From: a virus
IMG/VR virus record: IMGVR_UViG_3300006737_000235
Coordinates: 1 to 22,839 of that record
Reading direction: 5' to 3' (one strand)
Length of the DNA stretch: 22,839 bases
Each line of letters begins with the position of its first letter. Position 1 is the first letter of the stretch. Positions 3,097-19,765 of the stretch are shown here, piece by piece. The notes beneath the pieces are model-generated. The model ran no database searches and was not told where the DNA came from. It saw nothing but the letters and a program-made list of their open reading frames with translations. Both the position numbers and the translations under genes were made by a program.

Positions 3097-3108
3097 CAAT
3101 AGTGTCAA
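3080..3108 (-). promoter_or_regulatory. Candidate sigma70 promoter for the left minus cluster
   Basis: On the minus strand a perfect -35 TTGACA (3108-3103) is followed by a 17-base spacer and TATTAC (3085-3080), which matches the -10 consensus at 4 of 6. It would start transcription near 3073 and read into the gene starting at 3034. It interleaves with a plus-strand candidate on the same DNA. Confidence 0.45.
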
Positions 3109-3127
3109 TTTTTTTAAAGAGGTTACG

Positions 3128-3328: not shown

Positions 3329-3329
3329 T

Positions 3330-3725: not shown

Positions 3726-3739
3726 GAAAGGCTAAAATT

Positions 3740-4042: not shown

Positions 4043-4047
4043 TGAAG

Positions 4048-4896: not shown

Positions 4897-4906
4897 AAAG
4901 GTTAAC

Positions 4907-5572
4907 ATGATACATAAATTAAAAAACGTAAAAGCTAGATACCCGAAAATGAACCAGCCTTACATTTGGAGCGATCCAGATAATAGGTATATCGGTTGCG
5001 ATGCTACAATGGATAATGCTGCTTTTTATTGTGACGCATTTATCTCAAATGATGCTTATGAAGATTTGCAGAAATTATGTGAGCAAGTATGGAAAGAGTT
5101 TTGTGAAAAGCGTCAGCAAGAAAACAAGCCTATTAAAGACCCTAAGAAATTTAGGTTACCTTTAGATGAGGATAATGAGGGCAGAGGTTATTGCAAAATG
5201 AAGCTGCCAACATATGGCGATGAAAAAACTGTCGTTAAGCAATGGGATAGCGCAGCCGAAAGGTTAGCGAAAGACTTTGCTCTAACAACCAACAGTGATA
5301 TGCATTGTCAGTTCATCATCAAAGGCTATAAGAACGGCTCACAGCAGGGTATTACTCTAAAGCTAACTGATGTTCAGGTATTGCAGTTAGCTGCCCCTAT
5401 GGAGCGTCCGTCACCCTTTCAGGCTGAAGAGGGCGGCTTTAAGGCCAGTGACGCACCTGATGGGCATCAGCCTAAAACTGATGACGATGAGGAAACTGAG
5501 CTTGCGCCCGATAAGGGCGAAGATAAGAAGTCTGATGATTCGGAATTCTTTGACGATCAAATCCCATTCTAA
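4907..5572 (+). CDS. Single-stranded DNA-binding protein, Enc34/DUF2815-like
   Basis: 221 residues from ATG 4907, set by the leader GAAAGGTTAAC immediately upstream. The body has features of the phage Enc34-type ssDNA-binding proteins (DUF2815): aromatic N-terminal strands (YIWSDPDNRYIGCDATM), a conserved central helical part, and RLPLDEDNEGRGYCKMKLP. After about residue 165 comes a long acidic, probably disordered tail ending DDQIPF. This closely mimics the C-terminal tip of bacterial SSB, which recruits host repair and replication proteins. It coats ssDNA made during replication and RecE-like resection. A strong hairpin follows the stop codon. Confidence 0.82.
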   Translation: MIHKLKNVKARYPKMNQPYIWSDPDNRYIGCDATMDNAAFYCDAFISNDAYEDLQKLCEQVWKEFCEKRQQENKPIKDPKKFRLPLDEDNEGRGYCKMKLPTYGDEKTVVKQWDSAAERLAKDFALTTNSDMHCQFIIKGYKNGSQQGITLKLTDVQVLQLAAPMERPSPFQAEEGGFKASDAPDGHQPKTDDDEETELAPDKGEDKKSDDSEFFDDQIPF

Positions 5573-5574
5573 GC

Positions 5575-5605
5575 AAAAAAATAGCCCCACTGTTAAAGTG
5601 GGGCT
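5575..5605 (-). terminator. Strong intrinsic hairpin, canonical in the minus direction
   Basis: A 9-bp perfect stem AGCCCCACT/AGTGGGGCT (5583-5591 and 5597-5605) with a 5-base loop follows the SSB stop. In the plus direction the tail is only TTATAAGTT. In the minus direction the stem is followed at once by a run of seven T (complement of A7, 5575-5581). It may work in both directions, but its best orientation is against minus-strand transcripts. Confidence 0.65.
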
Positions 5606-5616
5606 TATAAGTTAAA

Positions 5617-5644
5617 ACCTACAGAAAGGCTAATAAAAGTAGGT
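5617..5644 (+). other. Hairpin carrying the GAAAGGCTAA motif in its loop
   Basis: ACCTAC (5617-5622) pairs with GTAGGT (5639-5644). The 16-base loop contains GAAAGGCTAA (5624-5633), the leader motif that elsewhere sits just before start codons. Here no start codon follows until 5686. It lies between a strong hairpin and the primase-helicase gene, so it might be a protein- or RNA-binding site in that gene's leader. Confidence 0.35.
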
Positions 5645-5685
5645 CTAGCAGTTATATAAATATCCATGCGGAGTATTCGAGTAAA

Positions 5686-7596
5686 ATGGTACAATATATA
5701 GATAATAATAACAAGTCATATACAGCATATTGGTCAGAGTATGCTGAAGGTATAATCCAGTCATTAGATCTAAAAAAAGTAAGCCCAAAAGAATATCATG
5801 GGGCTTGCCCATGTTGTGGCGGTAAGGATAGATTCTGGATTAGCGACTTTCATGGTGAGGTTCGTGTAAATTGCCGTAAATGCGAAGATTTTTCAGGCAT
5901 AACTAAAGTTTTAAGGGATCAGGGATTGTTACCTAAGTTCGAGCCGCAAAAAAGAGAAGATTTTTCACAAGTGCCTAAATTTCAAGTTGAGGATGTTCAC
6001 CCCTACTTATCTTTAAAAAGAATTAAGCAACATGGCGCTAAAATTGATAATGGTAAACTAAAAATACCAGTTATTAATAAAGATGGTGACATAAAAGGTT
6101 ACCAGTACATCGATGGGCAGGGTCAAAAGAAATTTAACACTGGTTTGCAATATAAAGGCTGTTTTCATGTTGTTGGTGGCGTGATTAAGGATAAAGCTTA
6201 CATTGCTGAGGGCTTTGCGACTGCCGCATCAATATATGAGGCAACATCAGTGCCGTGCGTTCATGCTTTAAATGCTGGTAATGTTGTAAATGTTGTCAGT
6301 GAGCTAAAATCGGTAAAACCAGAAACAGAATTTACCATAGCTGGTGATAATGATGAGGCTGGTTTGAAAGCTTGCAACAAGGCTAAAGAGGAGCATGGCA
6401 TTGAATTTGTTGTTCCTAAAAGTGAAGGTTTAGATTGGAACGATGTTTGGGTTGCCAGAGGAAAAGACTTTTTAATCAAAGCCTTACGACCACAAAGCAT
6501 TTTAGATGAGGTTATATTTCCAAATCAGGCCGTAACTCAAACATCATTAAATTACATTGTTAAAGGCTGGTTAAGCGAAAACAGCATGAGCATTGTTTAT
6601 GGTGCTAGTAATGTGGGTAAAAGCTTCTTTTGTATGGATATGGCTTATCACATTGCCGCAAAACAAAGCTGGATGGGTAACAAGGTCAGAGGTGGTGCTG
6701 TTTTATATTTGCAGACCGAAGGTGGTCAGGCGTTTAACGCACGTTTAATAGCGTTAAGAAATAAGTACAGCGATTTTGAAGATGTTAATCTTGCTGTTAG
6801 GGCCGCACCGATTAATCTTTTTAATAATGAAGATGACATGGCTAAGGTAAAATCGTTAATTGAAATAATTGGTAAAAAATATGAACCAGTTAAAGTATTA
6901 ATCGTTGATACTATATCTAGAGCCACTCAGGGGCAACTTGATGAGAATAGTAATTCAGATTTTGCCAGATTTTTAACAAATTTAGATATTTTAAGAGCAG
7001 AAACGGGCATACACGTTATGCTGGTTGGTCATTCAGGTAAAGACCCGTCAAAAGGATTAAGAGGTAGTTCAGCCCAAAAGGCAGGCACTGATACTGAGAT
7101 AGAAATAACCAATAATGAAGACGTAGGAATGCGAACTGCTACAACAACAAAGCAGAGAGATATGGAAACAGGTAAAACGATAAGCTTTTTACTTAGTCGT
7201 GAAGTCTTGGGTATTGATGAGGATGGTGACGATATTACCACCTGTACAATTCGTGAGCCGACTGAGGATGAGGTAAAAGAGGCTAAAAGGCCTAAACTTT
7301 CGGGTAAAAACCAAGTGCTTTTTAAGCAGGCATTTTATCAGCTTAGAGGTGAGGGCGTTGGAGAGAAAAATCCATCTGGCGTTGGTTGGCCTAAAGGCGG
7401 TACTTATTGGTGCATAGAAAATAAAAAGATAAAGGAGCATTTTCTAGGTAAATTAGGAATCCATAAGAACTCTGACACTGCGTATAAACAGACGTTCGAT
7501 TCACTGGTTGATAAGGGTCATATAGCTATAAATGACAATAAAGTATGGTTTTGCGATAAAGAGGGCAAACATAATGAGTCTAGTAGCCCGTTTTAA
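5686..7596 (+). CDS. Bifunctional primase-helicase (zinc finger, TOPRIM, RepA-like ATPase)
   Basis: 636 residues. Domains in order: a CHC2-type zinc finger with Cys41, Cys43/44, Cys63 and Cys66; a TOPRIM fold with Glu175 in AEGFATAAS and Asp221/Asp223 in AGDNDEAG; then an AAA_25/RepA-like hexameric helicase with Walker A YGASNVGKS (305-313) and Walker B VLIVDT (404-409), followed by a VGHSGKD sensor-like motif near 447-453. The C-terminal ~100 residues look like a winged-helix-like DNA-binding tail (inference). It should prime and unwind DNA at the replication fork. The 90-base leader holds a strong hairpin, a loop-presented leader motif and a weak GGAG. No DNA polymerase gene is in this window. 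Confidence 0.9.
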   Translation: MVQYIDNNNKSYTAYWSEYAEGIIQSLDLKKVSPKEYHGACPCCGGKDRFWISDFHGEVRVNCRKCEDFSGITKVLRDQGLLPKFEPQKREDFSQVPKFQVEDVHPYLSLKRIKQHGAKIDNGKLKIPVINKDGDIKGYQYIDGQGQKKFNTGLQYKGCFHVVGGVIKDKAYIAEGFATAASIYEATSVPCVHALNAGNVVNVVSELKSVKPETEFTIAGDNDEAGLKACNKAKEEHGIEFVVPKSEGLDWNDVWVARGKDFLIKALRPQSILDEVIFPNQAVTQTSLNYIVKGWLSENSMSIVYGASNVGKSFFCMDMAYHIAAKQSWMGNKVRGGAVLYLQTEGGQAFNARLIALRNKYSDFEDVNLAVRAAPINLFNNEDDMAKVKSLIEIIGKKYEPVKVLIVDTISRATQGQLDENSNSDFARFLTNLDILRAETGIHVMLVGHSGKDPSKGLRGSSAQKAGTDTEIEITNNEDVGMRTATTTKQRDMETGKTISFLLSREVLGIDEDGDDITTCTIREPTEDEVKEAKRPKLSGKNQVLFKQAFYQLRGEGVGEKNPSGVGWPKGGTYWCIENKKIKEHFLGKLGIHKNSDTAYKQTFDSLVDKGHIAINDNKVWFCDKEGKHNESSSPF

Positions 7597-7654
7597 TGTA
7601 TAAAAACAGCAACTTATAAAGAAAATATTAACAAAATGAACATAAATTATTTGT

Positions 7655-7699
7655 ATTATTTATTTATTAAAATGCCTATAGGCATTAATAATTAATAAT
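7655..7699 (+). repeat. 45-bp direct repeat, copy 1, with 14-bp palindrome
   Basis: This 45-base stretch is identical to 12930-12974. Its centre is the perfect palindrome ATGCCTATAGGCAT (7672-7685) in AT-rich flanks. It lies 20 bases before the TTG start of the plus-strand gene at 7720. A matched position before another plus-strand operon suggests a shared operator or promoter. The bases around the palindrome leave a 17-base spacer between AT-rich hexamers (TTTATT, TAATAA), which is compatible with, but does not prove, a promoter. Confidence 0.85.
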
Positions 7700-7719
7700 A
7701 TTAATGTTGGGAGCTTTCG

Positions 7720-7965
7720 TTGGACTATTCAAATTGGTTAAAAGAAAAATTAAAAAATGGTTCTGCTAAGGAATTCAAAAAGGGAACCAGTAAAATTAAA
7801 TTTTTGCAGACCTTTGAGTCAAAATTAGCAAGTATTACAACTGAAGAAGAATTATACGGATTTGCTAACCGTAGGCGTGTGCTAGGCATTAATTTGCCTG
7901 AATGGAACGATGAGCAGGTAAGGGCGATAAAATGGCGTTTAATGGAAATACGAAAAAACCGTTAA
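7720..7965 (+). CDS. Hypothetical basic 81-residue protein
   Basis: It begins with TTG at 7720, six bases after a good GGGAG. It is a highly charged, mostly helical, lysine-rich protein (WLKEKLKNGSAKEFKKG) that ends with an Arg/Trp-rich helix (WNDEQVRAIKWRLMEIRKNR). The FANRRRVLGINLP segment could contact nucleic acid. It overlaps the next gene by 34 bases. It is preceded by copy 1 of the 45-bp palindromic repeat, which probably controls it. No family recognised. Confidence 0.65.
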   Translation: MDYSNWLKEKLKNGSAKEFKKGTSKIKFLQTFESKLASITTEEELYGFANRRRVLGINLPEWNDEQVRAIKWRLMEIRKNR

Positions 7966-8132
7966 GGTGGGCTGTATACGATAATGGGCTTAAGATCTAT
8001 TATGAGGGCGAACTGGTGGGGCTAATAGAAAATGATGAGCTACACCACCTCAGCGCAGAAATACTTAACCTGTTGCGCTGGAAACATGGCAAAGGCGCAA
8101 AAAAAAGCCCTGCCGAAGCAGGGCAAGTTTAA
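7932..8132 (+). CDS. Hypothetical 66-residue protein
   Basis: Start ATG 7932 lies within the end of the previous gene and follows AAGGG by about 7 bases. A small beta-rich domain is suggested (LRWAVYDNGLKIYYEGELVGLIEND), followed by a helix (HLSAEILNLLRW) and a basic tail. Its last codons overlap the A8 tract and GC-rich hairpin that act as terminator for the opposing minus-strand cluster, so the KKSPAEAG tail is partly dictated by that structure. Function unknown. Confidence 0.6.
   Translation: MAFNGNTKKPLRWAVYDNGLKIYYEGELVGLIENDELHHLSAEILNLLRWKHGKGAKKSPAEAGQV
8099..8124 (-). terminator. Intrinsic terminator of the central minus-strand cluster
   Basis: Read on the minus strand, the stem GCCCTGC/GCAGGGC (7 bp) is closed over a UUCG loop with a C-G closing pair, a very stable tetraloop, and is followed by eight T (complement of A8 8099-8106). 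It lies 26 bases after the stop of the last minus-strand gene (8150), exactly where this transcript should end. It overlaps the 3' end of the converging plus-strand gene. Confidence 0.88.
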
Positions 8133-8149
8133 CTCAAGGAAAGGTGAGT

Positions 8150-8482
8150 TTATTTTTTAGACTTTTTAGGCTTTTCTTCAGGTAGCTCATCAGTGTCAAA
8201 CCAAGTGCCGTCAATATCCCACTCAATGCCATGTTCGCACATTTGATCTGTCTGATATTCTGATAAGCCTTCAAAATTTCTTTTCATATCATACATGGCG
8301 CTTTCTAGCTTCCTGATTGTAGATAACCAAACATCCTTGCACTCATCTAGCTCCCATAAAAATTCTGGTAAAATATTATTTAATCCAGTGACAGCTTTTT
8401 GCTGATCAGGGGTTAAACCTCTAAAGCCCATATTTTCTTGTTGCTGTTTATTTGCAACATTAATCCAATCTTTTTTATCCAT
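8150..8482 (-). CDS. Hypothetical 110-residue protein
   Basis: Last gene of the central minus-strand cluster. The start ATG 8482 overlaps the previous stop (TAATG) and has GAGGGAG upstream. The N-terminal half is helical with Gln/Asn-rich segments, the middle carries WELDECKDVW and an aromatic EWDIDGTWFDTDE stretch, and the tail is a Lys/Pro-rich KPKKSKK, perhaps disordered or DNA-contacting. A strong terminator follows 26 bases on. No family recognised. Confidence 0.65.
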   Translation of the reverse strand: MDKKDWINVANKQQQENMGFRGLTPDQQKAVTGLNNILPEFLWELDECKDVWLSTIRKLESAMYDMKRNFEGLSEYQTDQMCEHGIEWDIDGTWFDTDELPEEKPKKSKK

Positions 8483-8700
8483 TATAATTCTCCCTCGTCT
8501 TCATCGACAGTTAAGTTAAGTTCGATATCCTCAATATCGTGGCTAGTGTTCCTCATAAGCTTATAAACAGCTTGCTCTATAACCTGATGGCTTGGAACGT
8601 GCGTGTTGGGTAAATCCAACTGGTTAAAATCGACATTAAACGTAAAATGTACATCTAAGTCAGCTAAGTAAAAATCAACTGATATATCACCGCTAATCAA
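8482..8700 (-). CDS. Hypothetical acidic 72-residue protein
   Basis: It starts with TTG at 8700, after AAAGGA with a 7-base gap. The first half is beta-like with alternating hydrophobics (ISVDFYLADLDVHFTFNVDF), and the second half is helical and strongly acidic (IEDIELNLTVDEDEGEL). It is soluble with no cysteine. Its net negative charge is high, which in phages sometimes marks DNA-mimic or host-inhibitor proteins, but this is only a possibility. It overlaps both neighbours (8 bases and 1 base). Confidence 0.6.
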   Translation of the reverse strand: MISGDISVDFYLADLDVHFTFNVDFNQLDLPNTHVPSHQVIEQAVYKLMRNTSHDIEDIELNLTVDEDEGEL

Positions 8701-8941
8701 TGTTTATTCCTTTCTCTAAAATTGTTTCAGATTCAGCAATAGCGCTGTTAAATAAAATTTTATCTCTTATCAGTTCAGCCTTATGCAGTTCTTTAGCAAA
8801 GCCAAGTATCTCGATATGATCGCCTGAACTTAGCTCATCAGTGATAGCCCATATGCTTACCTTGTTAAGGTTGTTTATCTTAACAACTGCAAAACCTACA
8901 GGCTCATCACGCTTTTGTTTATTTATAACGAGCGTTTTCAA
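8693..8941 (-). CDS. Hypothetical 82-residue protein
   Basis: It begins with TTG at 8941 after AAGGA, overlapping the previous gene by 4 bases. The fold is probably alpha/beta: a beta N-terminus (TLVINKQKRDEPVGFAVVKI), another strand pair (KVSIWAITDEL), then a helix (AKELHKAELIRDKILFNSAIA). This is the pattern of many small phage domains but matches none I can name. It is one of two consecutive genes using TTG starts. Confidence 0.6.
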   Translation of the reverse strand: MKTLVINKQKRDEPVGFAVVKINNLNKVSIWAITDELSSGDHIEILGFAKELHKAELIRDKILFNSAIAESETILEKGINID

Positions 8942-9147
8942 TGCATTTTCCTTTTTATTTTATCGCGCCTAATTTTCGCGATGCGTTTAAGACATATAGC
9001 GTAGGCGATAAATAGATTTTCTATCTGATCATCATCTAAAACGTGATCACCAGTTCGCCAATCAACTAAAGAATAACCTTCAATATCGCCTGCGCTGTCA
9101 GTGTTACCGTAAATCGCATAGTTTAGCGGTAAATTGTAAAGCTTCAT
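8938..9147 (-). CDS. Hypothetical 69-residue protein
   Basis: The start ATG 9147 overlaps the previous stop (ATGA), and there is no strong ribosome site, so translation is probably coupled. The N-terminal half is polar and aromatic (YNLPLNYAIYGNTDSAGDIEGYSLVDW). The C-terminal half is a helix that ends very basic (KRIAKIRRDKIKRKMH), a candidate nucleic-acid or membrane-surface contact. Function unknown. Confidence 0.62.
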   Translation of the reverse strand: MKLYNLPLNYAIYGNTDSAGDIEGYSLVDWRTGDHVLDDDQIENLFIAYAICLKRIAKIRRDKIKRKMH

Positions 9148-9503
9148 ATTTTTTTAACCATTAAACCAACGTGAACCATCCAGAGTCGGATCATTTTTAA
9201 ATTCTCATTAGCTATATCGTTAACGTGTTGGGCGCTGACATTTCCTTGAAAACCACTAGGCATAAGCCAAACGCTAACAGTGCCTGACGCATAATCTCCG
9301 CAATCATTACTATAGCGGCAACAATAATGCCAATGTTTTGGGTCAAGGCTTCCCTTGTTTTTAGGGCTTATAAAGAAATAAACGTCAGACCTACTCCCAC
9401 TATAGCTTGTAGTGCCAGCGTAGCTTCCTTTTGGATGATCGCACATATCCTCAAAAATAGGTTCGTGCTTAAAACCGTATTCATCTATGGTAAATTCATT
9501 CAT
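9144..9503 (-). CDS. Hypothetical 119-residue His/Cys/Trp-containing protein
   Basis: I choose ATG 9503, which overlaps the upstream stop as TGATG; ATG 9515 is an alternative. The middle is rich in aromatic and metal-capable residues (DPKHWHYCCRYSNDCGDYASG), with three cysteines and two histidines close together, so metal or disulfide chemistry is conceivable. The C-terminus is helical and hydrophobic, ending WMVHVGLMVKKI. It sits in the cluster of small unknown early-looking genes. No family recognised. Confidence 0.62.
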   Translation of the reverse strand: MNEFTIDEYGFKHEPIFEDMCDHPKGSYAGTTSYSGSRSDVYFFISPKNKGSLDPKHWHYCCRYSNDCGDYASGTVSVWLMPSGFQGNVSAQHVNDIANENLKMIRLWMVHVGLMVKKI

Positions 9504-9685
9504 CACAAGCCCCAATCTATAGCGATTTCATCACCAGTTGTGGGGCAGTTGTAAAAACCATCAGCGCCTATATCGCGTGGAAAGTCCTCTTTTAAGATCC
9601 TGATTAAATCCTTTTCATCAGTTGCCCTAATGATGCCAAAATCAAGACCGTTCTCGCCTTCTAAATAAAATTCATATTTTTTCAT
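9503..9685 (-). CDS. Hypothetical 60-residue protein
   Basis: It starts at ATG 9685, six bases after a full copy of the GGAAAGGCTAAC leader (9692-9703). It is an acidic small alpha/beta protein (YEFYLEGENGLDFGIIRATDEKDLIRILKEDFPRDIG) with a single Cys. The pattern of a strand, a 'T/D-E-K-D-L' turn and a helix resembles small ferredoxin-like folds, but this is weak. It is first of a six-gene overlapping run that ends at the terminator at 8099-8124. Confidence 0.65.
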   Translation of the reverse strand: MKKYEFYLEGENGLDFGIIRATDEKDLIRILKEDFPRDIGADGFYNCPTTGDEIAIDWGL

Positions 9686-9848
9686 AATATTGTTAGCCTT
9701 TCCTTTTTATGTGACAGCTAGCTACTTGAGGTTTAATCACTAATCGAATTAATTTGCTATAATTCAAACAGTCCTTAACGAGCTTCACTAACTGCCACGA
9801 TTCGAATTGTACCACGTTTAAAATGATATCACAAACATTTAGTTAATA
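9686..9848. other. 163-base gene-free gap
   Basis: No open frame with a ribosome site is seen. It is AT-rich, with a leader copy next to the gene at 9685, an AGCTAGCT palindrome near 9718 and an ATTCGAAT palindrome near 9800. A weak TTAACG/CGTTTAA pairing around 9776-9825 could form a hairpin, but the conserved CCAGC/GCTGG core of the other junctions is absent. Confidence 0.5.
9692..9703 (-). promoter_or_regulatory. Conserved gene leader GGAAAGGCTAAC (type copy)
   Basis: Before many genes the sequence AAGGAAAGGCTAACAA or a close variant ends 2-6 bases from the start codon. Minus-strand copies: 9692-9703 (gene 9685), 9981-9992 (9977), 10808-10819 (10805), 11758-11769 (11755), 12118-12129 (12115), and variants at 3038-3048 (3034) and before 11622 (GAGGGTTTAACAA). 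Plus-strand copies: 3726-3735 (gene 3740) and 4896-4906 (4907). GGAAAGG can act as Shine-Dalgarno, but CTAAC lies outside the usual anti-SD contact and is still conserved. Confidence 0.8.
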
Positions 9849-9977
9849 TCAGATAAAGATCTGGGCTAGCTCTTTAATAAGCTTTGCAGCGTAGCCAGCC
9901 TGAAAAATTGAAACTGTCACGCCTAACAGCGCAAGCCCTCGCGTTACGCTGTACCAAATAATTTCGCGGTTACTCAT
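9849..9977 (-). CDS. Small membrane protein, 42 residues
   Basis: A short gene from ATG 9977 to TGA at 9849-9851. It begins directly after a perfect leader copy (9981-9992), which is the main evidence that it is real. Residues 12-30 (TRGLALLGVTVSIFQAGYA) form a probable single transmembrane helix with a short N-terminus (MSNREIIWYS) and a charged C-terminal helix (KLIKELAQIFI). It follows the hairpin after the DUF2786 gene. Possible roles include an inner-membrane effector or lysis regulator; none is shown. Confidence 0.6.
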   Translation of the reverse strand: MSNREIIWYSVTRGLALLGVTVSIFQAGYAAKLIKELAQIFI

Positions 9978-10016
9978 ATTCTTAGCCTTTCCTTTTGTTT
10001 AGCTTTTAGCGCCTAT

Positions 10017-10064
10017 AACAGCACTGGATGCCAGCCCTAGCAAGGGCTGGTCACCAGTAATGTT
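10017..10064 (-). ncRNA. Structured junction element, copy C
   Basis: It begins right after the stop of the DUF2786 gene. Inner stem CCAGCCCT/AGGGCTGG (10031-10038 with 10043-10050), loop of 4; a 3x3 internal loop (ATG/TCA on the plus strand); then an outer stem ACTGG/CCAGT of 5 bp, a 2x2 mismatch and AACA/TGTT of 4 bp. The core matches copies A and B, but the outer stems have different sequences that still pair. There is no T-run after it, so it is not a standard terminator. Confidence 0.75.
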
Positions 10065-10805
10065 TTAGCTCAGTCTCAGCGTGCCTCCAGAGCTTCCAGA
10101 ACCTACGCCACGACTAAGACTAGCTCTATCGCCAGCAGCAGCACCAGCACTAGCAGCAGAACCGCTTCCAGAATGACGCCCTCTAGCCGTTCCTATTCTT
10201 GGAAACATTTTGCGATGCTCCAAGTCTCTCTTTTGACCAGCTAAAACGACTAAATCAGTTCCAGTGCTAGACTGCTCTTTAACTTGCTGGTTTTCGTCCT
10301 TAGCCATTCTTTTTAATCTATCGCCTATACGATAACCCATAGCATTGAGAAAGTTTGAACGTATCGATTGAGGGTGGTGGCGCATTCTCAAATCTTGATA
10401 TTCCCATTGGGTTTTAAATTGTGCGAATTCTTGCTCCATTGTCGCTTTAATCAGATTGACCATGTACAAAGCATTTTGAACATTGTGAGGTGCGCCAAAA
10501 AATGAAATATTGCCGCTCGTGTCGTCATTTCGCCTAGTATAACTATGCATTAAAATTTCAACTTGGCAAAAGTCTCTAATGCCATTTAAAGAACAGACAA
10601 CTGGATGCTTGCGTTTGCCAGCTTCAAAATAATGAATTTCAAAATCCATTTCTTGAACGTCTAACTCTGTTAAGGATACATTATATTTAGCTTGCAATTC
10701 ACTTAGTTTTTTTGCGGCAAGCATTGCCTCAGCTTCAGAGCAACCGTTATCAATAGTACGTTCTGAAAACATTTTCATTCTGTTTAATATTTCTTTTTTA
10801 TCCAT
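10065..10805 (-). CDS. DUF2786 domain protein with a Ser/Gly/Ala-rich tail
   Basis: 246 residues from ATG 10805, preceded by a leader copy (10808-10819). Residues 5-47 (ILNRMKMFSERTIDNGCSEAEAMLAAKKLSEL...) fit the DUF2786 pattern, a short helical domain found in phage and bacterial proteins of unknown role, often near an LLAKAE/T-E-A-EA signature. Residues ~55-195 form a mixed domain with FFGAPHNVQNALYMVNLI, like the companion domain seen after DUF2786. The last 40 residues are low-complexity Ser/Gly/Ala/Arg, likely disordered and possibly RNA- or DNA-contacting. It is flanked by junction hairpins on both sides. Activity unknown. Confidence 0.75.
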   Translation of the reverse strand: MDKKEILNRMKMFSERTIDNGCSEAEAMLAAKKLSELQAKYNVSLTELDVQEMDFEIHYFEAGKRKHPVVCSLNGIRDFCQVEILMHSYTRRNDDTSGNISFFGAPHNVQNALYMVNLIKATMEQEFAQFKTQWEYQDLRMRHHPQSIRSNFLNAMGYRIGDRLKRMAKDENQQVKEQSSTGTDLVVLAGQKRDLEHRKMFPRIGTARGRHSGSGSAASAGAAAGDRASLSRGVGSGSSGGTLRLS

Positions 10806-10850
10806 TGTTTAGCCTTTCCTTTTTTAAATAGATAACCATAAACTTATAGC

Positions 10851-10898
10851 AAGCTTATGAAATGCCAGCCTATAAATAAGCTGGTCATTAATAAGCTT
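10851..10898 (-). ncRNA. Structured junction element, copy A
   Basis: Between the GP88-like gene and the DUF2786 gene. Inner stem on the minus RNA CCAGCUUA/UAGGCUGG (10865-10872 with 10877-10884), loop of 4, with a U-G pair that would be C-A on the opposite strand. Then the same 3x3 internal loop as in the other copies, two A-U pairs, a 1x1 mismatch, and an outer 8-bp stem AAGCTTAT/ATAAGCTT (10851-10858 with 10891-10898). The stop codon of the upstream gene lies at the edge of the stem. Confidence 0.78.
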
Positions 10899-11622
10899 AG
10901 TGTGTCTGAAATATTACAGGCTTTTGAGCTACCCAGCAAACCGCGCAATCAGCGCAAGAATTAACTTGTTTGGTTTGTTCTGGGCAAAGTATAGCTTCCT
11001 TCCTTTTTATTGCCTGTTTTGACCTAATATCATCATAACTATTTGCAGAAAAATTATCCTCAAAATTACCGCTAAATCTAACGGCAAAGCGTCCGTTGGC
11101 ATTGTCTCTTAAGCTTAGGATTGCTTGACCTATTGAGCGCTCAAGCTTGTCACTAGCGTTGGGCTGGTTGGCTGTGTATCCGTAAACGTGTAAGGCTGGA
11201 AATTTGCCTAACCAGCCAGCCCATTTAGCGACATAACCAACACTGTAAAAATCGCCTAAAATATGCAATCTAACTAGAAAGCCTTTAGGGTGTTTACGCT
11301 GTAATTCTGCAAGCTCAATTTCTAGCATTGCCTCAAGTGCTGGGCCTGCCTCATATCTGTATGCGTAGCGCATATGGTTACCATAACAGTCTAACCAGTG
11401 AACGCATGATTTAGGACAAGTCGCACGTTCTTCTAAGGTCAAAGTAAATATTGGAAAGCCTTTATAATGGCCCTTATTCACCTTTTTACCTAGCTTGGCA
11501 TTAGTTGACTTTTTGATAAGCTTTTCCGTTTTTGCCATTAGCGAACTATCAGCTTTTTTAACGCGATACTGGAATAATGTTTTTCCAGCATTTGCGGCTA
11601 TTTGGGTTTTAGTTAAAGTCAT
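10897..11622 (-). CDS. GP88-like cysteine-rich phage protein
   Basis: 241 residues. The motif ATCPKSCVHWLDCYG at 67-81 and the HILGDFYS motif at 120-127 match the phage GP88 family (PF17338), whose biochemical role is not established. Cysteines fall in two groups: C69, C73, C79 and, near the end, C213, C223, C226, C229 (CADCAVC). Seven cysteines in CxxxC and CxxCxxC spacing suggest a metal or iron-sulfur site, which is inference. The start ATG 11622 follows GAGGGTTTAACAA, a divergent form of the shared leader, and overlaps the end of the 48-residue gene by 14 bases. It is followed by junction hairpin A. Confidence 0.78.
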   Translation of the reverse strand: MTLTKTQIAANAGKTLFQYRVKKADSSLMAKTEKLIKKSTNAKLGKKVNKGHYKGFPIFTLTLEERATCPKSCVHWLDCYGNHMRYAYRYEAGPALEAMLEIELAELQRKHPKGFLVRLHILGDFYSVGYVAKWAGWLGKFPALHVYGYTANQPNASDKLERSIGQAILSLRDNANGRFAVRFSGNFEDNFSANSYDDIRSKQAIKRKEAILCPEQTKQVNSCADCAVCWVAQKPVIFQTH

Positions 11623-11755
11623 TTGTTAAACCCTCGCTTTTTAGCTGGTCATTATCTTGCAGTGATAAATGATCAAATTCATCAAAAAAATCACGCTCGG
11701 AGTCGCGTTCTAATTTGTCTAGATACGCTTTAAAGTTTTGGTATTTGTTTTGCAT
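11609..11755 (-). CDS. Small acidic 48-residue protein
   Basis: ATG 11755 follows a perfect GGAAAGGCTAAC leader copy (11758-11769) and ends at TAA 11609-11611, overlapping the GP88-like gene by 14 bases. It is a charged helical peptide (YLDKLERDSERDFFDEFDHL). Its last third (DNDQLKSEG...) is coded by DNA containing one arm of the junction element (plus-strand AGCTGGTCATTA, 11643-11654), which suggests the reading frame ran into a decayed intergenic element. Role unknown. Confidence 0.6.
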   Translation of the reverse strand: MQNKYQNFKAYLDKLERDSERDFFDEFDHLSLQDNDQLKSEGLTNDFN

Positions 11756-11779
11756 TTGTTAGCCTTTCCTTGTTTATGC

Positions 11780-11831
11780 AAATTGGTATTAAATGCCAGC
11801 CTAACTTGAAGCTGGTCATTAATATCAATTT
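11780..11831 (-). ncRNA. Structured junction element, copy B
   Basis: Between the genes at 11825-12115 and 11609-11755. Inner stem on the minus RNA CCAGCUU/AGGCUGG (11796-11802 with 11809-11815) with one U-G pair and a 6-base loop; the same 3x3 internal loop; then an outer stem of 12 pairs in 13 positions (11780-11792 with 11819-11831). The stop codon of the upstream gene is inside the outer stem. There is no T-run. Confidence 0.78.
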
Positions 11832-12115
11832 TGAGCTACTCGCCATTTTGCAATTGCTTGCTCGCGTCTTTTCTCATAGCCTTTATTAAGTTCTTTAATA
11901 CCGTCTTTAAGAGCTTTTGCGCTACCGTCCGTTTTTAGGATTTTCATATGTTTACGAGACCAGTTTTTGCTTCCCAAAACTGGATGAGCAAAGCCCAAAT
12001 AAGCAAACTCAAATTCTTCAATACATTCTTGCAAATCATATGAACCGAATTCATCGCACCAGCCATGCGTATATGTTCCATAGTCTAGAGCCAAAGTGTA
12101 ATAATCTTTTGCCAT
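11825..12115 (-). CDS. Hypothetical 96-residue protein, first gene of the central minus cluster
   Basis: ATG 12115 follows a leader copy (12118-12129). The N-terminal half is aromatic and acidic (YYTLALDYGTYTHGWCDEFGSYDLQECIEEFEFAYLG). The C-terminal half is basic and helical (KALKDGIKELNKGYEKRREQAIAKWRVAQ). It has two cysteines and no known motif. As first gene after the repeat-rich control region and the minus promoter candidate at 12171-12199, it is likely the earliest expressed of the cluster. Its stop codon is inside junction hairpin B. Confidence 0.68.
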   Translation of the reverse strand: MAKDYYTLALDYGTYTHGWCDEFGSYDLQECIEEFEFAYLGFAHPVLGSKNWSRKHMKILKTDGSAKALKDGIKELNKGYEKRREQAIAKWRVAQN

Positions 12116-12170
12116 TTTTTAGCCTTTCCTTAATTTATGCGCGAATCACTATGCACGCGGTTACACGCTC

Positions 12171-12199
12171 ATTTTAACGATATCAAGCGATATTAACAA
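12171..12199 (-). promoter_or_regulatory. Candidate promoter for the central minus cluster
   Basis: On the minus strand, -35 TTGTTA (12199-12194, 4/6) is separated by 17 bases from -10 TAAAAT (12176-12171, 5/6). It points at the gene starting at 12115. The spacer and -35 overlap the first two iterons (12179-12198), so a protein binding these would block or alter the promoter. Confidence 0.5.
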
Positions 12200-12240
12200 G
12201 TATTTATATAATATTGAGTAAATATTAGGTGATATTAAGT
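12179..12240. repeat. Five helically phased iterons (GATATTAAG-type)
   Basis: Near-repeats start at 12179 (GATATCAAGC), 12189 (GATATTAACA), 12210 (AATATTGAGT), 12221 (AATATTAGGT) and 12231 (GATATTAAGT). The steps are 10, 21, 11 and 10 bases, i.e. whole helical turns, so all copies face the same side of the DNA. This suits cooperative binding of a replication initiator or repressor, or intrinsic bending. Confidence 0.65.
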
Positions 12241-12631
12241 AATTGTTCACTGAGTAGGGGAAAGGCTTTTTTGTGACCTAAACTATACCAAAGTAAACAA
12301 GGCCTATCAGCGAGCCTTATATTGGCTCTCAGCGATTTTTGACCAATTTTTGACGTTCGGTATACAATTGTTCGCGATTGTTTGGATTATGCCAAAAATT
12401 GACCGAACAGATACAAAAGCACAAGGTTGGGCGCGGGCGCGCGCAAATAATACAATGCGATACAAATCGCAAGCTAATGTTTTACAATGTTCAAATTAAG
12501 TACAAATCAAAACAATGGTTCAACTTTGTTTTGCAATGTTTAAATATTGTTTAACTCAATACCGAACCCCATTTAAGTTTTGCATTGTACTATTTCTGGC
12601 TAATGTTGAACAATGGCGAACAATTGTATAC
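12241..12631. repeat. ATTGTTC-type repeat family
   Basis: Variants of ATTGTTC(A/G) or AATGTTCAA recur on both strands: 12241-12250, 12366-12375, 12376-12385, 12486-12495, 12512-12525, 12533-12545, 12544-12556, and inverted at 12603-12613 and 12616-12625. Two of them are exactly 10 bases apart. The density is well above what neighbouring sequence shows by eye. They may be binding sites of a phage replication or regulatory protein. Confidence 0.5.
12360..12631. repeat. 23-bp inverted repeat pair (12360-12382 / 12609-12631)
   Basis: The arm GTATACAATTGTTCGC (12360-12375) is repeated exactly in inverted orientation at 12616-12631. The match extends to 23 bases with one mismatch. The arms are 226 bases apart, and each contains ATTGTTC-family sites. 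They bracket most of that repeat family, so they may delimit the functional core of the origin or operator. Confidence 0.75.
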
Positions 12632-12652
12632 AAATGAGATCTATTTTTTTAG

Positions 12653-12795
12653 CCCCCCCCCTTAAAGTATTTGCAGCTACCTATGCTATAACTACATTCC
12701 CATACAGTAAAATCTGTGCTATAAATTTTTTGGGTGTTGTTTAATAAAATTTTACCTCCCTGATTTTTATTATTTTCTCTCGCAACACCCCCCCC
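12653..12795. other. Two long C-tracts (C9 at 12653-12661, C8 at 12788-12795)
   Basis: In an AT-rich region, runs of nine and eight C (G on the minus strand) stand out. The second is followed by TTTTACCCC. They lie about 220-350 bases before the small terminase gene. They could be slippage-prone sequencing positions, a packaging or nicking signal, or G-rich structures on the minus strand; nothing in the sequence decides. Confidence 0.4.
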
Positions 12796-12861
12796 TTTTA
12801 CCCCTACTAGGAATTTAGGAATTGCTAGGAAAATCAAAATCCTAATTATTTTGCAGATATT

Positions 12862-12889
12862 TTGCTAATATTTTAATATTTTCTATATT
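12862..12889 (+). promoter_or_regulatory. Candidate promoter for the terminase operon
   Basis: -35 TTGCTA (12862-12867, 4/6), 16-base spacer, -10 TATATT (12884-12889, 5/6), reading towards the small terminase at 13010. It lies within a block of repeated ATATTTT units (about 12857-12893), where chance matches are frequent, so confidence is low. The 45-bp palindromic repeat would be in its 5' leader. Confidence 0.3.
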
Positions 12890-12929
12890 TTAAAGGGCTT
12901 AAAACTAATAAGACATACCTATACTTAAG

Positions 12930-12974
12930 ATTATTTATTTATTAAAATGCCTATAGGCATTAATAATTAATAAT
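12930..12974 (+). repeat. 45-bp direct repeat, copy 2, with 14-bp palindrome
   Basis: Identical over 45 bases to 7655-7699, with the palindrome ATGCCTATAGGCAT at 12947-12960. It lies 35 bases before the small terminase start. After it a short ATGTTGAACAT dyad (near 12981-12991) stands just before the ribosome site. Both copies precede plus-strand operons and both point the same way. Confidence 0.85.
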
Positions 12975-13009
12975 TGTAGTATGTTGAACATAACTTTTGC
13001 GGAAAGAGT

Positions 13010-13498
13010 ATGGCTGGTAAACCAAAATTAAAAAAAGCTTTATCTGAACTTGATAAAAGAGGTGGCGTTGAGGCTTTGCAGAGAGAATTGTTATCTGGCA
13101 AAACAATTCCTATGATTGCTAAAGAGCTAGATTTAGATCGCGGTTACTTTAGGCGTAACTTGATGAAGGACGAAAAGTATGGCAACGCTATACGAGAGAT
13201 AGAGCATTTAGTGGCTGATGCTCATGCTGATGCTGCGTTCGAAGCTCTTAACGATATTAAAGATAGGCGAGACACTGAGGTTAAAGAGGCCTTAAACGGT
13301 GATCGTGACGTTGCTGAGGGTAATGTTAATCAGGTTGATATTGGTATTGCTAAAGGTTTAGCGCAGCAGCATAATTTTATAGCTTCATCTTTAAACAAAA
13401 ATAGGTATGGTACAGGCAGTCAGCAAAACATCCAGATTAACATTGGTGATTTGCATTTAGATGCGCTGCGTAAGATGAAGGTTATTGACCATGAATGA
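13010..13498 (+). CDS. terS: Terminase small subunit (putative)
   Basis: 162 residues; ATG 13010 follows GGAAAGAG. The N-terminal half has a helix-turn-helix-like segment (SGKTIPMIAKELDLDRGYFRRNLMKD), suited to recognising the packaging site. The middle is a long charged helix, and the C-terminal part (QQHNFIASSLNKNRYG, then QNIQINIGDLHLDALR) matches the usual end of phage small terminases. It overlaps the large terminase by 8 bases, the standard pairing. It should bind the pac or cos site and load the large subunit. The family call is by pattern and position. Confidence 0.8.
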   Translation: MAGKPKLKKALSELDKRGGVEALQRELLSGKTIPMIAKELDLDRGYFRRNLMKDEKYGNAIREIEHLVADAHADAAFEALNDIKDRRDTEVKEALNGDRDVAEGNVNQVDIGIAKGLAQQHNFIASSLNKNRYGTGSQQNIQINIGDLHLDALRKMKVIDHE

Positions 13499-14897
13499 CT
13501 TATCTCAGAATACGATGATTGAGTTTACCCAGCGCTATGCTAAAAATCCAACATTGTTTGTGAGAGAGGTGCTTGGGTTAGAGCCGTTAGATTATCAGGC
13601 TGAGTTTTTGCAGGCTATTGCTGATGGAGAAAGAAAAATTTCAATTCGCTCTGGACATGGAACTGGTAAGAGCGCGGCTGCGTCATGGGCTATGCTTTGG
13701 TATTTCTTAATGCATTATCCGAATAAGGTTGTGGTGACTGCCCCTACTTCTAGCCAGTTGTTTGATGCTTTGTTTGCTGAAATGAAGCGTTGGATTAATG
13801 AGTTGCCGCCTGCGTTTCACGATGTGTTGAATGTAAAGTCTGATCGTGTTGAGCATACTTCTGCGCCTAGTGAGATGTTTATTTCGGCTAGAACCTCAAG
13901 AGCAGAAACGCCAGAAGCGCTTGCTGGGGTACACTCAGAACACGTTATGTTAGTTGTAGACGAGGCATCTGGTGTGCCTGAGCAAGTATTTGAAGCTGCT
14001 GCTGGTTCTATGTCTGGTCATAATGCGACTACGATTATGTTAAGTAACCCTACTAGATCTAGTGGTACATTTTTTGAGAGCCAGAATAGGCTTGCTGATA
14101 GCTGGTGGACTAGGCGTTGGTCATGCATTGAAAGCCCTTTGGTAAGTGATGAATTTATTGAAGAAATGAAGTTGCGCTATGGTGAAGACAGTAATGCCTT
14201 TAGAATCAGAGTGTTAGGTGAATTTCCACAGGCTGACGATGATACAATCATACCTTATCACTTAGTTGAAAACGCAATACATCGTGATGTTGAGGGTGAT
14301 GAGGACTTGCCTAGTGTGTGGGGTTTGGACGTTAGTAGGTTTGGCAATGACAAAACTGCGTTGTGCAAGCGTCAGGGTTCTATTGTGACTGAATTGAGGT
14401 CTTGGTCTGGTTTAGATTTGATGCAGACTGTTGGCCGTGTTGTTGCAGAATATGAAGGTTTACAGCCATCCAGACGGCCTAGAGAGATACTTGTGGATAG
14501 TATTGGGCTTGGTTCTGGTGTTGTTGATAGGTTAAGAGAACTAGAGTTGCCTGTTCGTGGTGTTAATGTTGCAGAAGCGCCTAGTATGGGTGCTACATAT
14601 TTAAATTTGCGTAGTGAGTTATGGTTTAAGACTAAGGGTTGGTTTGAGGATCGTGCTTGTAAGTTGCCGAAAGACGATCAGTTATTAGCGGAATTGACAG
14701 GTATTAGATATAGCTTTACGTCTAGTGGTAAGATGAAAGCTGAAAGTAAGGATGAGATGCGTAAGCGTGGATTAGCGTCACCTGACTTGGCTGATGCGCT
14801 TTGTTTAACGATGGCTAGTGATGCTGCAACTGCATTATCTGGAGCATTTACTAGCTGGCGAGGCGACATAAAACGTAATTTGCGTGGCATTGCATAA
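13491..14897 (+). CDS. terL: Terminase large subunit (ATPase and nuclease)
   Basis: 468 residues from ATG 13491, preferred because AAGG lies about 9 bases upstream; a TTG at 13485 is too close to it. ATPase domain: Walker A SGHGTGKS (54-61), Walker B VMLVVDEA with acidic pair 157-158, then a coupling-like LSNPTR motif near 185-189. Nuclease domain (RNase H-like): Asp280 in GLDVSRFGNDK, Asp336 in LVDSIG and Asp432/435 in SPDLADAL, i.e. the metal-binding triad. It translocates DNA into the empty procapsid and cuts the concatemer. All key residues are present, so it should be active. Confidence 0.95.
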   Translation: MNDLSQNTMIEFTQRYAKNPTLFVREVLGLEPLDYQAEFLQAIADGERKISIRSGHGTGKSAAASWAMLWYFLMHYPNKVVVTAPTSSQLFDALFAEMKRWINELPPAFHDVLNVKSDRVEHTSAPSEMFISARTSRAETPEALAGVHSEHVMLVVDEASGVPEQVFEAAAGSMSGHNATTIMLSNPTRSSGTFFESQNRLADSWWTRRWSCIESPLVSDEFIEEMKLRYGEDSNAFRIRVLGEFPQADDDTIIPYHLVENAIHRDVEGDEDLPSVWGLDVSRFGNDKTALCKRQGSIVTELRSWSGLDLMQTVGRVVAEYEGLQPSRRPREILVDSIGLGSGVVDRLRELELPVRGVNVAEAPSMGATYLNLRSELWFKTKGWFEDRACKLPKDDQLLAELTGIRYSFTSSGKMKAESKDEMRKRGLASPDLADALCLTMASDAATALSGAFTSWRGDIKRNLRGIA

Positions 14898-14932
14898 TGT
14901 GGTATGTGTTTAAAAAAATAAAGGAGATGATT

Positions 14933-15031
14933 ATGCCGAGTGGTAAGGGTACTTATGGTTCTACAATGGGTAGACCTCCTAAAAAAACGACTAAGAAAAA
15001 GAAAAAAGCTAAAAAAGCTAAGAAAAAATAA
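14933..15031 (+). CDS. Tiny Lys-rich protein, 32 residues
   Basis: From ATG 14933, preceded by AAAGGAGAT, a very strong ribosome site, to TAA at 15029-15031. The sequence opens MPSGKGTYGSTMGRPPKK and ends in an almost pure Lys/Ala tail. It overlaps the next start by one base (TAATG), as do the two genes after it. Its AT-hook-like GRPPKK segment suggests contact with DNA. Peptides of this kind are found near the terminase in marine phages as I recall them, without known role. It may be a DNA-condensing or packaged virion peptide. Confidence 0.65.
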   Translation: MPSGKGTYGSTMGRPPKKTTKKKKKAKKAKKK

Positions 15032-15207
15032 TGTCTTTATATAGAAACATTGCTAAAAAGAGAGCCAGAATTAAGGCTGGTTCTGGTGAGAAAATGCGTA
15101 AGAAAAACGCAAAAGGCGCACCTTCTGATAAAGACTTTAAAGATGCAGCAAAGACAGCTAAGAAGCGTCCTAAGAAGAAAAAATCTAAAAAGAAGGGTAA
15201 GAAGTAA
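15031..15207 (+). CDS. Small Lys-rich protein, 58 residues
   Basis: From ATG 15031 (TAATG overlap with the previous gene) to TAA 15205-15207 (TAATG overlap with the next). It begins MSLYRNIAKKRARIKAGSGEKMRKK and ends with a Lys/Gly run. About 40% of residues are Lys or Arg. The central KGAPSDKDFKDAAKTAKK stretch is a pattern I recognise from small marine-phage proteins of unknown function. It probably binds DNA or an acidic capsid surface. Translation is coupled to its neighbours. Confidence 0.68.
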   Translation: MSLYRNIAKKRARIKAGSGEKMRKKNAKGAPSDKDFKDAAKTAKKRPKKKKSKKKGKK

Positions 15208-16103
15208 TGGCTAATGAAGAACATATGCAGCGAGTTGAGGCTCATTACAGGGCTTTAGGTATGGAAAATCCTCACGCTGGTCATTTTGCGTCTATGCGTG
15301 GACGTTCAGGCGGTGGCGGTGGAGCTTCAGATACAGCAAGGTCTGGCGGTCTTGGTTCTGGAAAAGGTGGAGCTAGATACGAAAGAACTTCAGCAGAAGA
15401 CCGTAAAAAAGCCAACAATGATGGTAGATTTGGCTATTTTGATGAAACAAACAAGCGTTATGTTCCTGCTCTATTTGATGCTATAGATGGCGGTGGTAGA
15501 GATACTAGGGGCGATGAATTTTCTGGTGGACCGTTAAGCGGAATATTAAATGATCTTGGCATAAATCCATACGGATCTCAGCGTGATCGTATGTTTGTTA
15601 GCCCAAATACTTCTCCTATTGTACAGGCGGTAGCGAGGCCTAGGGCTAGACCATTTGATGCTGCAATGGCAAATCAGGAAGCTAGCTTTACTCAGCCCAA
15701 CACTACACCTATGAATGCTCAGGAAATGAGCTTTACTCAGCCAAGTAGTACACCTCAAAACTTGCAGGAGATTAGCTTTACTCAGCCTAATCCTACACCG
15801 ATGACTGCTCAGGAAATGAGTTTTAGACAGCCTAACACTACACCTATGAATGCTCAGGAAATGAGTTTTAGACAGCCTGTCTCTAATCCTTTTATGGGTC
15901 CAACATATGATATGCCTGCTGATCCAAGAGCGCAAATGGGCGGTGGAAATGCTTTACCGTCATCTGGAGAAGAAGCTGATTTCGCAGCATTTTCAGAAAG
16001 TATGCAAAAAAACTTAGGCACAACATTGCCAAAAGAAGCCTTACTAAATATGTACTTTAACTACAAATCGCAGTTAGCGGAAATGAAATCCGCTCAACAG
16101 TAA
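15207..16103 (+). CDS. Unidentified protein with five 15-residue repeats
   Basis: 298 residues. The N-terminus is a short helix (MQRVEAHYRALGM) followed by a Gly/Ser-rich linker; residues ~60-100 are charged with RFGYFDETNKRYVPALFDAI. Residues 156-230 consist of five 15-residue units of the type AQEMSFTQPNTTPMN, Gln/Ser/Thr/Pro-rich and presumably extended. A helical C-terminus (EADFAAFSESMQKNL... LLNMYFNYKSQLAEM) may mediate assembly. It lies between terminase and adaptor, where a portal or scaffold would be expected, but shows neither signature. It may be a virion or scaffold-type protein. Function unknown. Confidence 0.7.
   Translation: MANEEHMQRVEAHYRALGMENPHAGHFASMRGRSGGGGGASDTARSGGLGSGKGGARYERTSAEDRKKANNDGRFGYFDETNKRYVPALFDAIDGGGRDTRGDEFSGGPLSGILNDLGINPYGSQRDRMFVSPNTSPIVQAVARPRARPFDAAMANQEASFTQPNTTPMNAQEMSFTQPSSTPQNLQEISFTQPNPTPMTAQEMSFRQPNTTPMNAQEMSFRQPVSNPFMGPTYDMPADPRAQMGGGNALPSSGEEADFAAFSESMQKNLGTTLPKEALLNMYFNYKSQLAEMKSAQQ
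15672..15896 (+). repeat. Tandem repeat, five units of 45 bases
   Basis: In-frame units at 15672, 15717, 15762, 15807 and 15852 encode the 15-residue repeat. Units 2 and 4 are nearly identical; the last is partly degenerate (ending PVSNPFM). Such repeats can expand or contract by slippage without a frame change, so copy number may differ between relatives. Confidence 0.85.
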
Positions 16104-16369
16104 TGCCAAGAAAGCGAGAAAAAGCCATACCTAAAACGACCAAAGGCAAAGGTCGTAATTACCGTTCGGCAAAAGAAGGTGCTGGCATGACCGCAAAAGG
16201 TGTTGCCGCACATAGAAGAAAAAACCCAAAGTCGAAACTAAAAACGGCTGTAACAAAAAAGAAAAATTTAACTGCAAAAGAGAAGGCTCGTAAGAAGTCT
16301 TTTTGCGCTAGGTCTAGAGGCTGGACAGGTGAACGTGGCAAAGCTGCTCGTAGAAGATGGAATTGTTAG
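16103..16369 (+). CDS. DUF6321-like small basic protein
   Basis: 88 residues, starting by TAATG overlap with the repeat-protein gene and ending immediately before the adaptor start. The C-terminal motif KKSFCARSRGWTGERGKAARRRWNC, with the preceding KGVAAHRRKNPKSKLKTAV, is a conserved pattern of short phage proteins that I recall as DUF6321. It is extremely basic with two cysteines, likely a nucleic-acid-binding or head-associated protein. It is the third Lys/Arg-rich small gene in the 14.9-16.4 kb stretch. Confidence 0.75.
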   Translation: MPRKREKAIPKTTKGKGRNYRSAKEGAGMTAKGVAAHRRKNPKSKLKTAVTKKKNLTAKEKARKKSFCARSRGWTGERGKAARRRWNC

Positions 16370-16990
16370 ATGGCGTTATCAACTTATGACGAACTAAAAG
16401 CTAGTGTTGCTGATTTTTTAAATCGCAGTGACTTAACGTCAGTTATACCTGATTTTATTAAAATGGCTGAAACTGATATGAACCGTAAGGTTAGGCATTG
16501 GCGTATGGAAAATAGGGCGTCAGCAACAATAAACGCTCAGTATAATGCCCTGCCTACTGATTTTTTAGAACCAATTAGGGCGCATATTGAGACAGGCGAT
16601 TACAAGCCAATAGAGCTTGTTTCGCAGTTTGAAATGCAACAAAGGCGCAAGAATAACTTAGACACATCTGGTAAGCCTAGTTTTTATTCTATTACGCAGG
16701 GAGAAATGGAGATATACCCAACGCCAGATGGTAGTTATGGTATAGAGCTAAACTATTATGCAAAGATACCGTCCTTGAGCGCATCCACAACCACAAATGA
16801 AATATTAACTAATTTTCCTGACGCTTATTTATATGGTTCATTAATTCATGCAGCGCCTTATTTACAGGAAGATAAACGCACAACGACATGGGCTGCGTTG
16901 TATCAAGCATCAATTGATGGTATAAATTCTGAAAGTAACCAAGCTAAATTTGGTGGTACTGGTAGAAGAATGAGGGTGAGGGCGTATTAA
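16370..16990 (+). CDS. Head-tail adaptor protein, SU10-adaptor-like
   Basis: 206 residues. The N-terminal motif YDELKASVADFLNRSDL...IPDFIKMAETDMNRKVRHWRM, and the following ALPTDFLEPIRAHI and YSITQGEMEIYPTPDG segments, are typical of the phage adaptor family first described structurally in phage SU10. Such proteins form the ring below the portal and join the short tail. The family presence is the main reason to infer a podovirus-like virion. The TAATG overlap with the fibre gene links it to the tail operon. The portal itself is not in this window. Confidence 0.85.
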   Translation: MALSTYDELKASVADFLNRSDLTSVIPDFIKMAETDMNRKVRHWRMENRASATINAQYNALPTDFLEPIRAHIETGDYKPIELVSQFEMQQRRKNNLDTSGKPSFYSITQGEMEIYPTPDGSYGIELNYYAKIPSLSASTTTNEILTNFPDAYLYGSLIHAAPYLQEDKRTTTWAALYQASIDGINSESNQAKFGGTGRRMRVRAY

Positions 16991-17910: not shown

Positions 17911-17928
17911 TTAGAAAAGGAGAAAATC

Positions 17929-18378: not shown

Positions 18379-18395
18379 GTAAGAGGTAAGCACAT

Positions 18396-19762: not shown

Positions 19763-19765
19763 GGT

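Follow-up and report, generated by a model that had tools for sequence, protein, structure and literature searches.

A structured RNA hairpin with a fixed UGH/CAU internal loop recurs between genes in many phages and prophages that are unrelated to one another and mostly traceable to Rhodobacterales

The early mRNA of phage T7 carries five RNase III sites at which it is cut during transcription, giving rise to monocistronic and dicistronic mRNAs (PMC4858673). The model site R1.1 forms a 60-nt hairpin in which the internal loop measures 4/5 nt, and the alphaproteobacterial RNase III of S. meliloti requires longer duplexes than does its counterpart from E. coli (PMC6121014). The sites R0.3, R0.5, R1/R0.7, R1.1 and R1.3 were used for comparison. 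As read from the T7 record, the early sites consist of a stop codon, a spacer of 7–26 nt and the hairpin, and the loop signal precedes the next ATG by 23–31 nt at four of the five sites, the exception being R1.1 with 116 nt. Other phage elements of relevance here are the T4-type promoter-early stem-loop elements, which combine a promoter with a terminator-type stem-loop, and the put sites of HK022, which are few in number, lie near early promoters and form two adjacent hairpins.

The stretch of DNA analysed here (the window) comprises the 22,839 bases of a phage record. Its plus strand carries replication and structural genes, and its minus strand a cluster of small genes running from 12115 down to 8150. 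An earlier note had placed three hairpins in this cluster, with a TGA/CAT internal loop, an inner stem continued by U-G and U-A in two copies and by C-G and C-G in the third, and outer stems of unrelated sequence. All three were found at their positions and as described. The features are listed below in the direction of transcription; R1 and R2 are the two covariance models of the family.

11825..12115, minus strand: gene 5' of copy 1, with its stop codon ending 6 nt ahead of the loop (ORF list, offsets)
11779..11832, minus strand: hairpin copy 1, made up of outer stem, internal loop, inner stem and loop (cmsearch R1 54.2 bits, R2 45.1 bits; fold z −5.4)
11816..11818, minus strand: copy 1 internal loop, 5' side UGA (sequence)
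11793..11795, minus strand: copy 1 internal loop, 3' side CAU (sequence)
11609..11755, minus strand: 48-codon gene 3' of copy 1, start offset 37 nt (sequence, offset)
10897..11622, minus strand: GP88-family gene 5' of copy 2 (Pfam PF17338, clustering)
10848..10901, minus strand: hairpin copy 2 (cmsearch R1 52.8 bits, R2 40.2 bits; fold z −5.9)
10885..10887, minus strand: copy 2 internal loop, 5' side UGA (sequence)
10862..10864, minus strand: copy 2 internal loop, 3' side CAU (sequence)
10065..10805, minus strand: DUF7168/DUF2786 gene between copies 2 and 3 (Pfam)
10014..10067, minus strand: hairpin copy 3 (cmsearch R1 59.0 bits, R2 48.9 bits; fold z −5.7)
10051..10053, minus strand: copy 3 internal loop, 5' side UGA (sequence)
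10028..10030, minus strand: copy 3 internal loop, 3' side CAU (sequence)
9849..9977, minus strand: 42-codon gene 3' of copy 3, where relatives have other genes (sequence, neighbour exchange)
8107..8124, minus strand: ordinary intrinsic terminator closing the cluster (stem GCCCTGC TTCG GCAGGGC, then eight T)

An unfiltered covariance-model search of the whole window returned these hairpins as the only strong matches (59, 54 and 53 bits), everything else scoring at most 15 bits. The copies folded far better than dinucleotide shuffles, none of 200 shuffles being as good, and the distance from the end of the upstream stop codon to the loop was 6, 9 and 11 nt in copies 1–3. None of the three is followed by a run of T. 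Given the fact that the cluster ends in an ordinary terminator, the hairpins are a different kind of element.

Further repeats were observed in the window. The leader GGAAAGGCTAA lies directly 5' of the start codon as an exact repeat at five minus-cluster junctions (minus strand, 9693–9703, 9982–9992, 10809–10819, 11759–11769 and 12119–12129), two of which are without a hairpin. A 40-nt inverted repeat (GTATACAATTGTTCGC...; 12360–12399 and 12592–12631), 78% complementary and with its arms 192 nt apart, sits in an A+T-rich stretch with runs of G upstream of the minus cluster; this may be a control or origin region. A 45-nt tandem repeat was located at 15675–15899 within the ORF 15207–16103 (15-residue repeats, ∼70% alike). 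A single half of the element without a partner (TGACCAGC; 11644–11651, minus strand) lies within the 48-codon gene, shortly ahead of the start of GP88, and is probably due to chance.

Close relatives of the window phage, traced through the GP88 gene, carried hairpins at the same junctions, and several had a fourth copy. Loss of outer-stem pairing in such relatives had been named in advance as evidence against the element; what was observed were stems of changed sequence that were still paired. A pattern scan of 2.9 million virus contigs found this arrangement again in phages that otherwise do not resemble the window phage. The first broad pattern gave mostly chance matches, located within genes; a chance origin of the copies was rejected, as true copies separate cleanly by the pairing of their outer and inner stems. 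The covariance model R1, built from 36 copies, recovered further copies in which CCAGC/GCTGG was replaced by GCAGCC/GGCTGC, CTGGCC/GGCCAG, CCGCCC/GGGCGG, GGGGCGG/CCGCCCC and others. In an independent pattern search, with the outer frame (ATCGGTG...CATCCCATGC) as the sole fixed part, 132 stretches were returned in two groups, with an inner stem of at least 6 pairs in 82 and of at most 4 in 50. The second model, R2, was built from 65 diverse copies. Its search yielded 225 matches that were complete or almost so, every one on the gene-sense strand at E < 0.01, and 194 of these were distinct. The 194 copies come from phage contigs, phage isolates and prophages, which were searched by pattern and by covariance model; a search of this kind had been suggested in the earlier note for the window and its relatives, and it recovered all three copies of the window.

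No Rfam 15 family reached its gathering score in the window, and lax scans of the window region and nine other loci gave no believable match. No published description of the element was found in the literature, and the roseophage genome paper makes no mention of hairpins, terminators or RNases. The window hairpins are one corner of an undescribed, widespread family of structured phage RNA that is absent from Rfam 15. The original observation was right, and the phenomenon is much larger than first noted.

Compensatory change was analysed in an alignment of 65 sequences. Pairing was present in 88% of cells as opposed to 65% in shuffles, and 195 cells were compensated versus 46 in shuffles, with no shuffle coming near, which bears out the compensating stems proposed from the window. 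Double changes were seen at 14 of 15 pairs, both stems covarying, and pairing frames that had been slid reached at most 40% pairing. The inner stem, 7–8 bp in length, was 99.7% paired, and each of its six counted pairs showed double changes. In the outer stem of 8–9 bp, covariation was seen except at one position three pairs from the loop, which was mostly a pyrimidine mismatch. At the well-paired stem positions of the 194 copies, 134 G-U pairs and 7 C-A mismatches were counted on the gene-sense strand. As the opposite strand would swap these counts, the folded molecule is the gene-sense RNA, that is, the mRNA, in agreement with the direction suggested earlier by the U-G pairs.

The internal loop read TGH/CAT in 187 of the 194 copies, a count that carries some ascertainment, since R1 and R2 were built mostly from UG/CAU copies; departures were accepted, and seven were found. 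On the 5' side TGA occurred 101 times, TGT 60 times, TGC 31 times and other triplets twice, and CAT formed the 3' side in 189 of 194 copies. Position 17 (H) was A, U or C, with G in a single copy, and its pairing with C42 seems to be avoided. An alternative register (U15-A43, G16-C42 with a bulged 17, and G14-U44) would fit energetically, yet the pairs 13-46 and 14-45 covary independently (GG/CC, AA/TT, GA/TC, AG/CT, TG/CA) and it was rejected. The symmetric 3x3 frame given in the earlier note is therefore kept. Within it, U-A and G-C pairs with two single bulges are possible. The conserved core of the element is the internal loop, 5'-UGH/5'-CAU; the shared CCAGC/GCTGG, which the earlier note had listed as a common core, is incidental and is replaced pair by pair in many relatives.

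The placement of the hairpin between genes is rigid. The upstream stop codon ended 4–16 nt before the loop in 185 of the 209 copies with a usable call, the mode of 8 nt corresponding to the stem base, and the next start codon lay 20–60 nt past the loop in 206 of 212 copies (median 37). Up to seven copies followed one another in a single 4.8-kb contig (L157). At least five T in any 8 nt after the stem were found in only 5 of 218 copies, the other 213 being without a U-run. The terminator-type arrangement of a G+C-rich hairpin followed by a run of U is thus not that of this element, and the earlier view that these are not plain terminators holds. Promoter-like matches fell below the shuffled mean, and no promoter was shown at the element.

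The neighbouring genes are often exchanged across the hairpin. Similar pairs across the element were one-sided in 63+56 cases and two-sided in 56; the one-sided fraction was 0.52 at element junctions and 0.36 at the remaining junctions of those locus pairs, all of these counts resting on crude gene calling. In our view this exchange reflects phage mosaicism, and any preference for element junctions is mild at best. GP88-family homologues occurred in 14 carrier loci as well as the CRP roseophages, and the gene is 66% identical between the window family and the T7-like roseophages (CRP-361 protein versus that of the window relative). GP88 genes were located at 10897–11622 in the window, L212:812–1582 and L248:2767–3537, with the hairpin after the gene in the window and L248, and gene and hairpin may move together. 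The records of two more distant GP88 relatives, L134 and L135 (63% and 48% identity), held no element.

The phages and prophages that carry the element are numerous and unrelated, and most could be traced to Rhodobacterales. Their loci include genes for a T7-type RNA polymerase, a match to the N4-like RNA polymerase, an SU10-type portal and adaptor, integrases and terminases of several unrelated families. In a comparison of five carriers (CRP-361, Mae-JY02, a 41-kb window relative and contigs G019 and G005), no protein was common to all of them, and several pairs shared none; a shared phage protein was therefore rejected as the recognition factor. Among bacterial genomes, R2 matches of at least 40 bits were found in 8 of 293 Rhodobacterales genomes (one of these being the centre genome, which had been chosen for its match), in 1 of 385 genomes of a class-wide sample (the same centre genome) and in 2 of 398 genomes sampled across the phylum, both of which belong to the Rhodobacterales set as well. 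Each genome match had its own stem sequence. Two matches inspected more widely had phage-type genes nearby (terminase, methyltransferases), and for a third the two proteins tried gave no phage match. The element is assigned to phages of Rhodobacterales and, probably, of close relatives. Given this concentration and the lack of a protein common to the five carriers, a trans-acting factor, if there is one, is probably supplied by the host.

In the T7-like roseophages the element is located in the early region, 5' of the RNA polymerase gene, and in the CRP phages it falls within the region that the host polymerase must transcribe first. The earlier assignment to early genes thus holds for the T7-like roseophages; for the window phage, an early timing is something we infer. 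The nearest relatives of the window-phage terminase are unclassified spring phages (60%) and Sinorhizobium phage phiM5 (54%), which suggests, without proving, an alphaproteobacterial host. A copy of the element was also located in Mae-JY02 (L343, 29579–29631, minus strand), a phage recorded as infecting the cyanobacterium Microcystis, the element having elsewhere been traced to Rhodobacterales phages; this host label may deserve a check.

Taking together the sense-strand RNA, the stop-codon placement, the distance of 20–60 nt to the next start, the repeated copies, the missing U-run and the carriers, which share no protein although their host order appears to be the same, a processing and 3'-end-forming site served by a host factor is the best explanation. 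A function in message processing or in protection of the 3' end is likely. We consider it about an even chance that the element is an intercistronic processing and 3'-end-forming hairpin, cut by the host RNase III or another host nuclease. The element would be a cis-acting RNA hairpin built into a long phage operon message. With the stop codon lying at the foot of the outer stem, the hairpin would fold after the terminating ribosome has departed, and a host double-strand ribonuclease, most likely RNase III, would recognise two stacked helices (∼8 and 7–8 bp) split by the UGH/CAU loop and cut at or near that loop. In this way the message of the upstream gene would mature with a stable hairpin at its end, and that of the downstream gene would begin with a leader of only ∼35 nt that carries its ribosome-binding site. 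The cutting, its agent and position, and the stabilising or separating of messages are what we infer from this anatomy. The layout matches the order of the T7 early sites, and among the roles proposed in the earlier note, a T7-like RNase III site fits the placement best.

The fixed loop is what an RNase III model explains least. The sequence requirements of RNase III are generally considered slight, and a strict UG/CAU therefore calls for a further reason: the loop might restrict cleavage to one cut, match what the alphaproteobacterial enzyme prefers or serve as the target of another factor. In view of the longer duplexes required by the S. meliloti enzyme, two 8-bp helices are also near the minimum, which counts against processing by RNase III. 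When host substrates of RNase III were sought, no convincing UGH/CAU hairpin with a strong stem was seen in six Rhodobacterales 23S rRNA loci; as the motif is in addition nearly absent from the host genomes, no host substrate of this kind is known. Tentatively, UGH/CAU can be viewed as the recognition module of a so far unknown Rhodobacterales ribonuclease or RNA-binding protein that unrelated phages, T7-like, SU10-like and temperate ones among them, would use in parallel for cutting or capping their messages gene by gene. A less likely case is that the RNA itself cleaves at the loop.

The alternatives were weighed against the same observations. The loop might bind a host RNA-binding protein or nuclease other than RNase III, so that the hairpin protects the 3' end or blocks an exonuclease on uncut RNA. 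A loop of fixed sequence between two helices that are free to vary is in line with such binding, as are the near absence of G at position 17, where pairing with C42 is seemingly avoided, the host factor implied by host-clade restriction and the lack of a protein common to the five carriers, and the position directly 3' of the stop codon. However, no host transcript with the same module was found, and protection alone leaves unexplained why the hairpin stands between operon genes and not at the operon end, where the window has its ordinary terminator; we regard this alternative as possible, though rather doubtful. Governing of ribosome release or of re-initiation at the next gene by a hairpin after the stop codon would agree with a stop codon at the stem base and a start codon ∼37 nt after the loop. 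The Shine-Dalgarno region, however, lies outside the hairpin, close coupling usually acts over shorter distances and the fixed internal loop would be unexplained, which makes a translational role improbable.

A cis-acting antitermination RNA of the HK022 put kind, altering the host RNA polymerase for read-through of the operon, is consistent with a conserved module in gene-sense RNA and with the position in the CRP phages, within the region first transcribed by the host polymerase. It would be expected once or twice near promoters with no reason to adjoin stop codons, whereas as many as seven copies occur in a short contig, each at a fixed distance from a stop codon, and we consider this function very unlikely. 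We judge equally slim the chances of a DNA-level linker or mobile repeat for the exchange of gene cassettes, comparable to T4-type promoter-early stem-loops or integron attC sites. The frequent exchange of neighbouring genes across the element would suit it, but the enrichment is modest under crude gene calling, no recombinase accompanies the element, no protein is common to the five carriers, and the sequences diverge with pairing kept and with sense-strand G-U pairs that selection at the DNA level would not produce. Least probable of all, to the point of being scarcely credible, is an intrinsic terminator that works without a U-run: a stable hairpin does stand directly behind the stop codon, but the U-run is missing in 213 of 218 copies, many copies occur in succession, the T7-like roseophages carry the element 5' of their RNA polymerase gene, and the window cluster closes with a canonical terminator.

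The comparative support for this undescribed RNA family is very strong, and the phages that carry it have no protein in common but seem to infect one and the same bacterial order. This suggests that the host supplies a common means of processing or protecting phage messages, outside the T7–E. coli model. The element can provide a marker for Rhodobacterales phages in metagenomes, and the isolated roseophages make the family testable. If the loop is indeed a recognition module, the UGH/CAU motif offers a handle for finding the host factor.

Compared with the known systems, the element resembles the T4-type promoter-early stem-loop elements in being repeated between small phage genes and tied to gene exchange; unlike them, it has no U-run and no promoter was shown. 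It shares with the HK022 put RNA the character of a cis-acting phage RNA of early transcripts, and differs from it in being a single hairpin with an internal loop, present at many gene ends. Membership in the T7 sites by sequence was refuted, as the sequences differ and an R2 search of T7 1–20000 gave no match, and there is no close T7-family homology. The T7 sites share CUCAAGG...CCUUUAUGAU and have a larger, asymmetric loop, whereas the present element has a 3x3 UGH/CAU loop and two variable stems. Both are hairpins with an internal loop, located between genes of a polycistronic message, near a stop codon and a short distance from the next start, and both extend over about two helical turns, with outer stems of 8–9 bp and inner stems of 7–8 bp flanking the 3x3 loop of the element. 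As far as anatomy can tell, the element would work like a T7 site.
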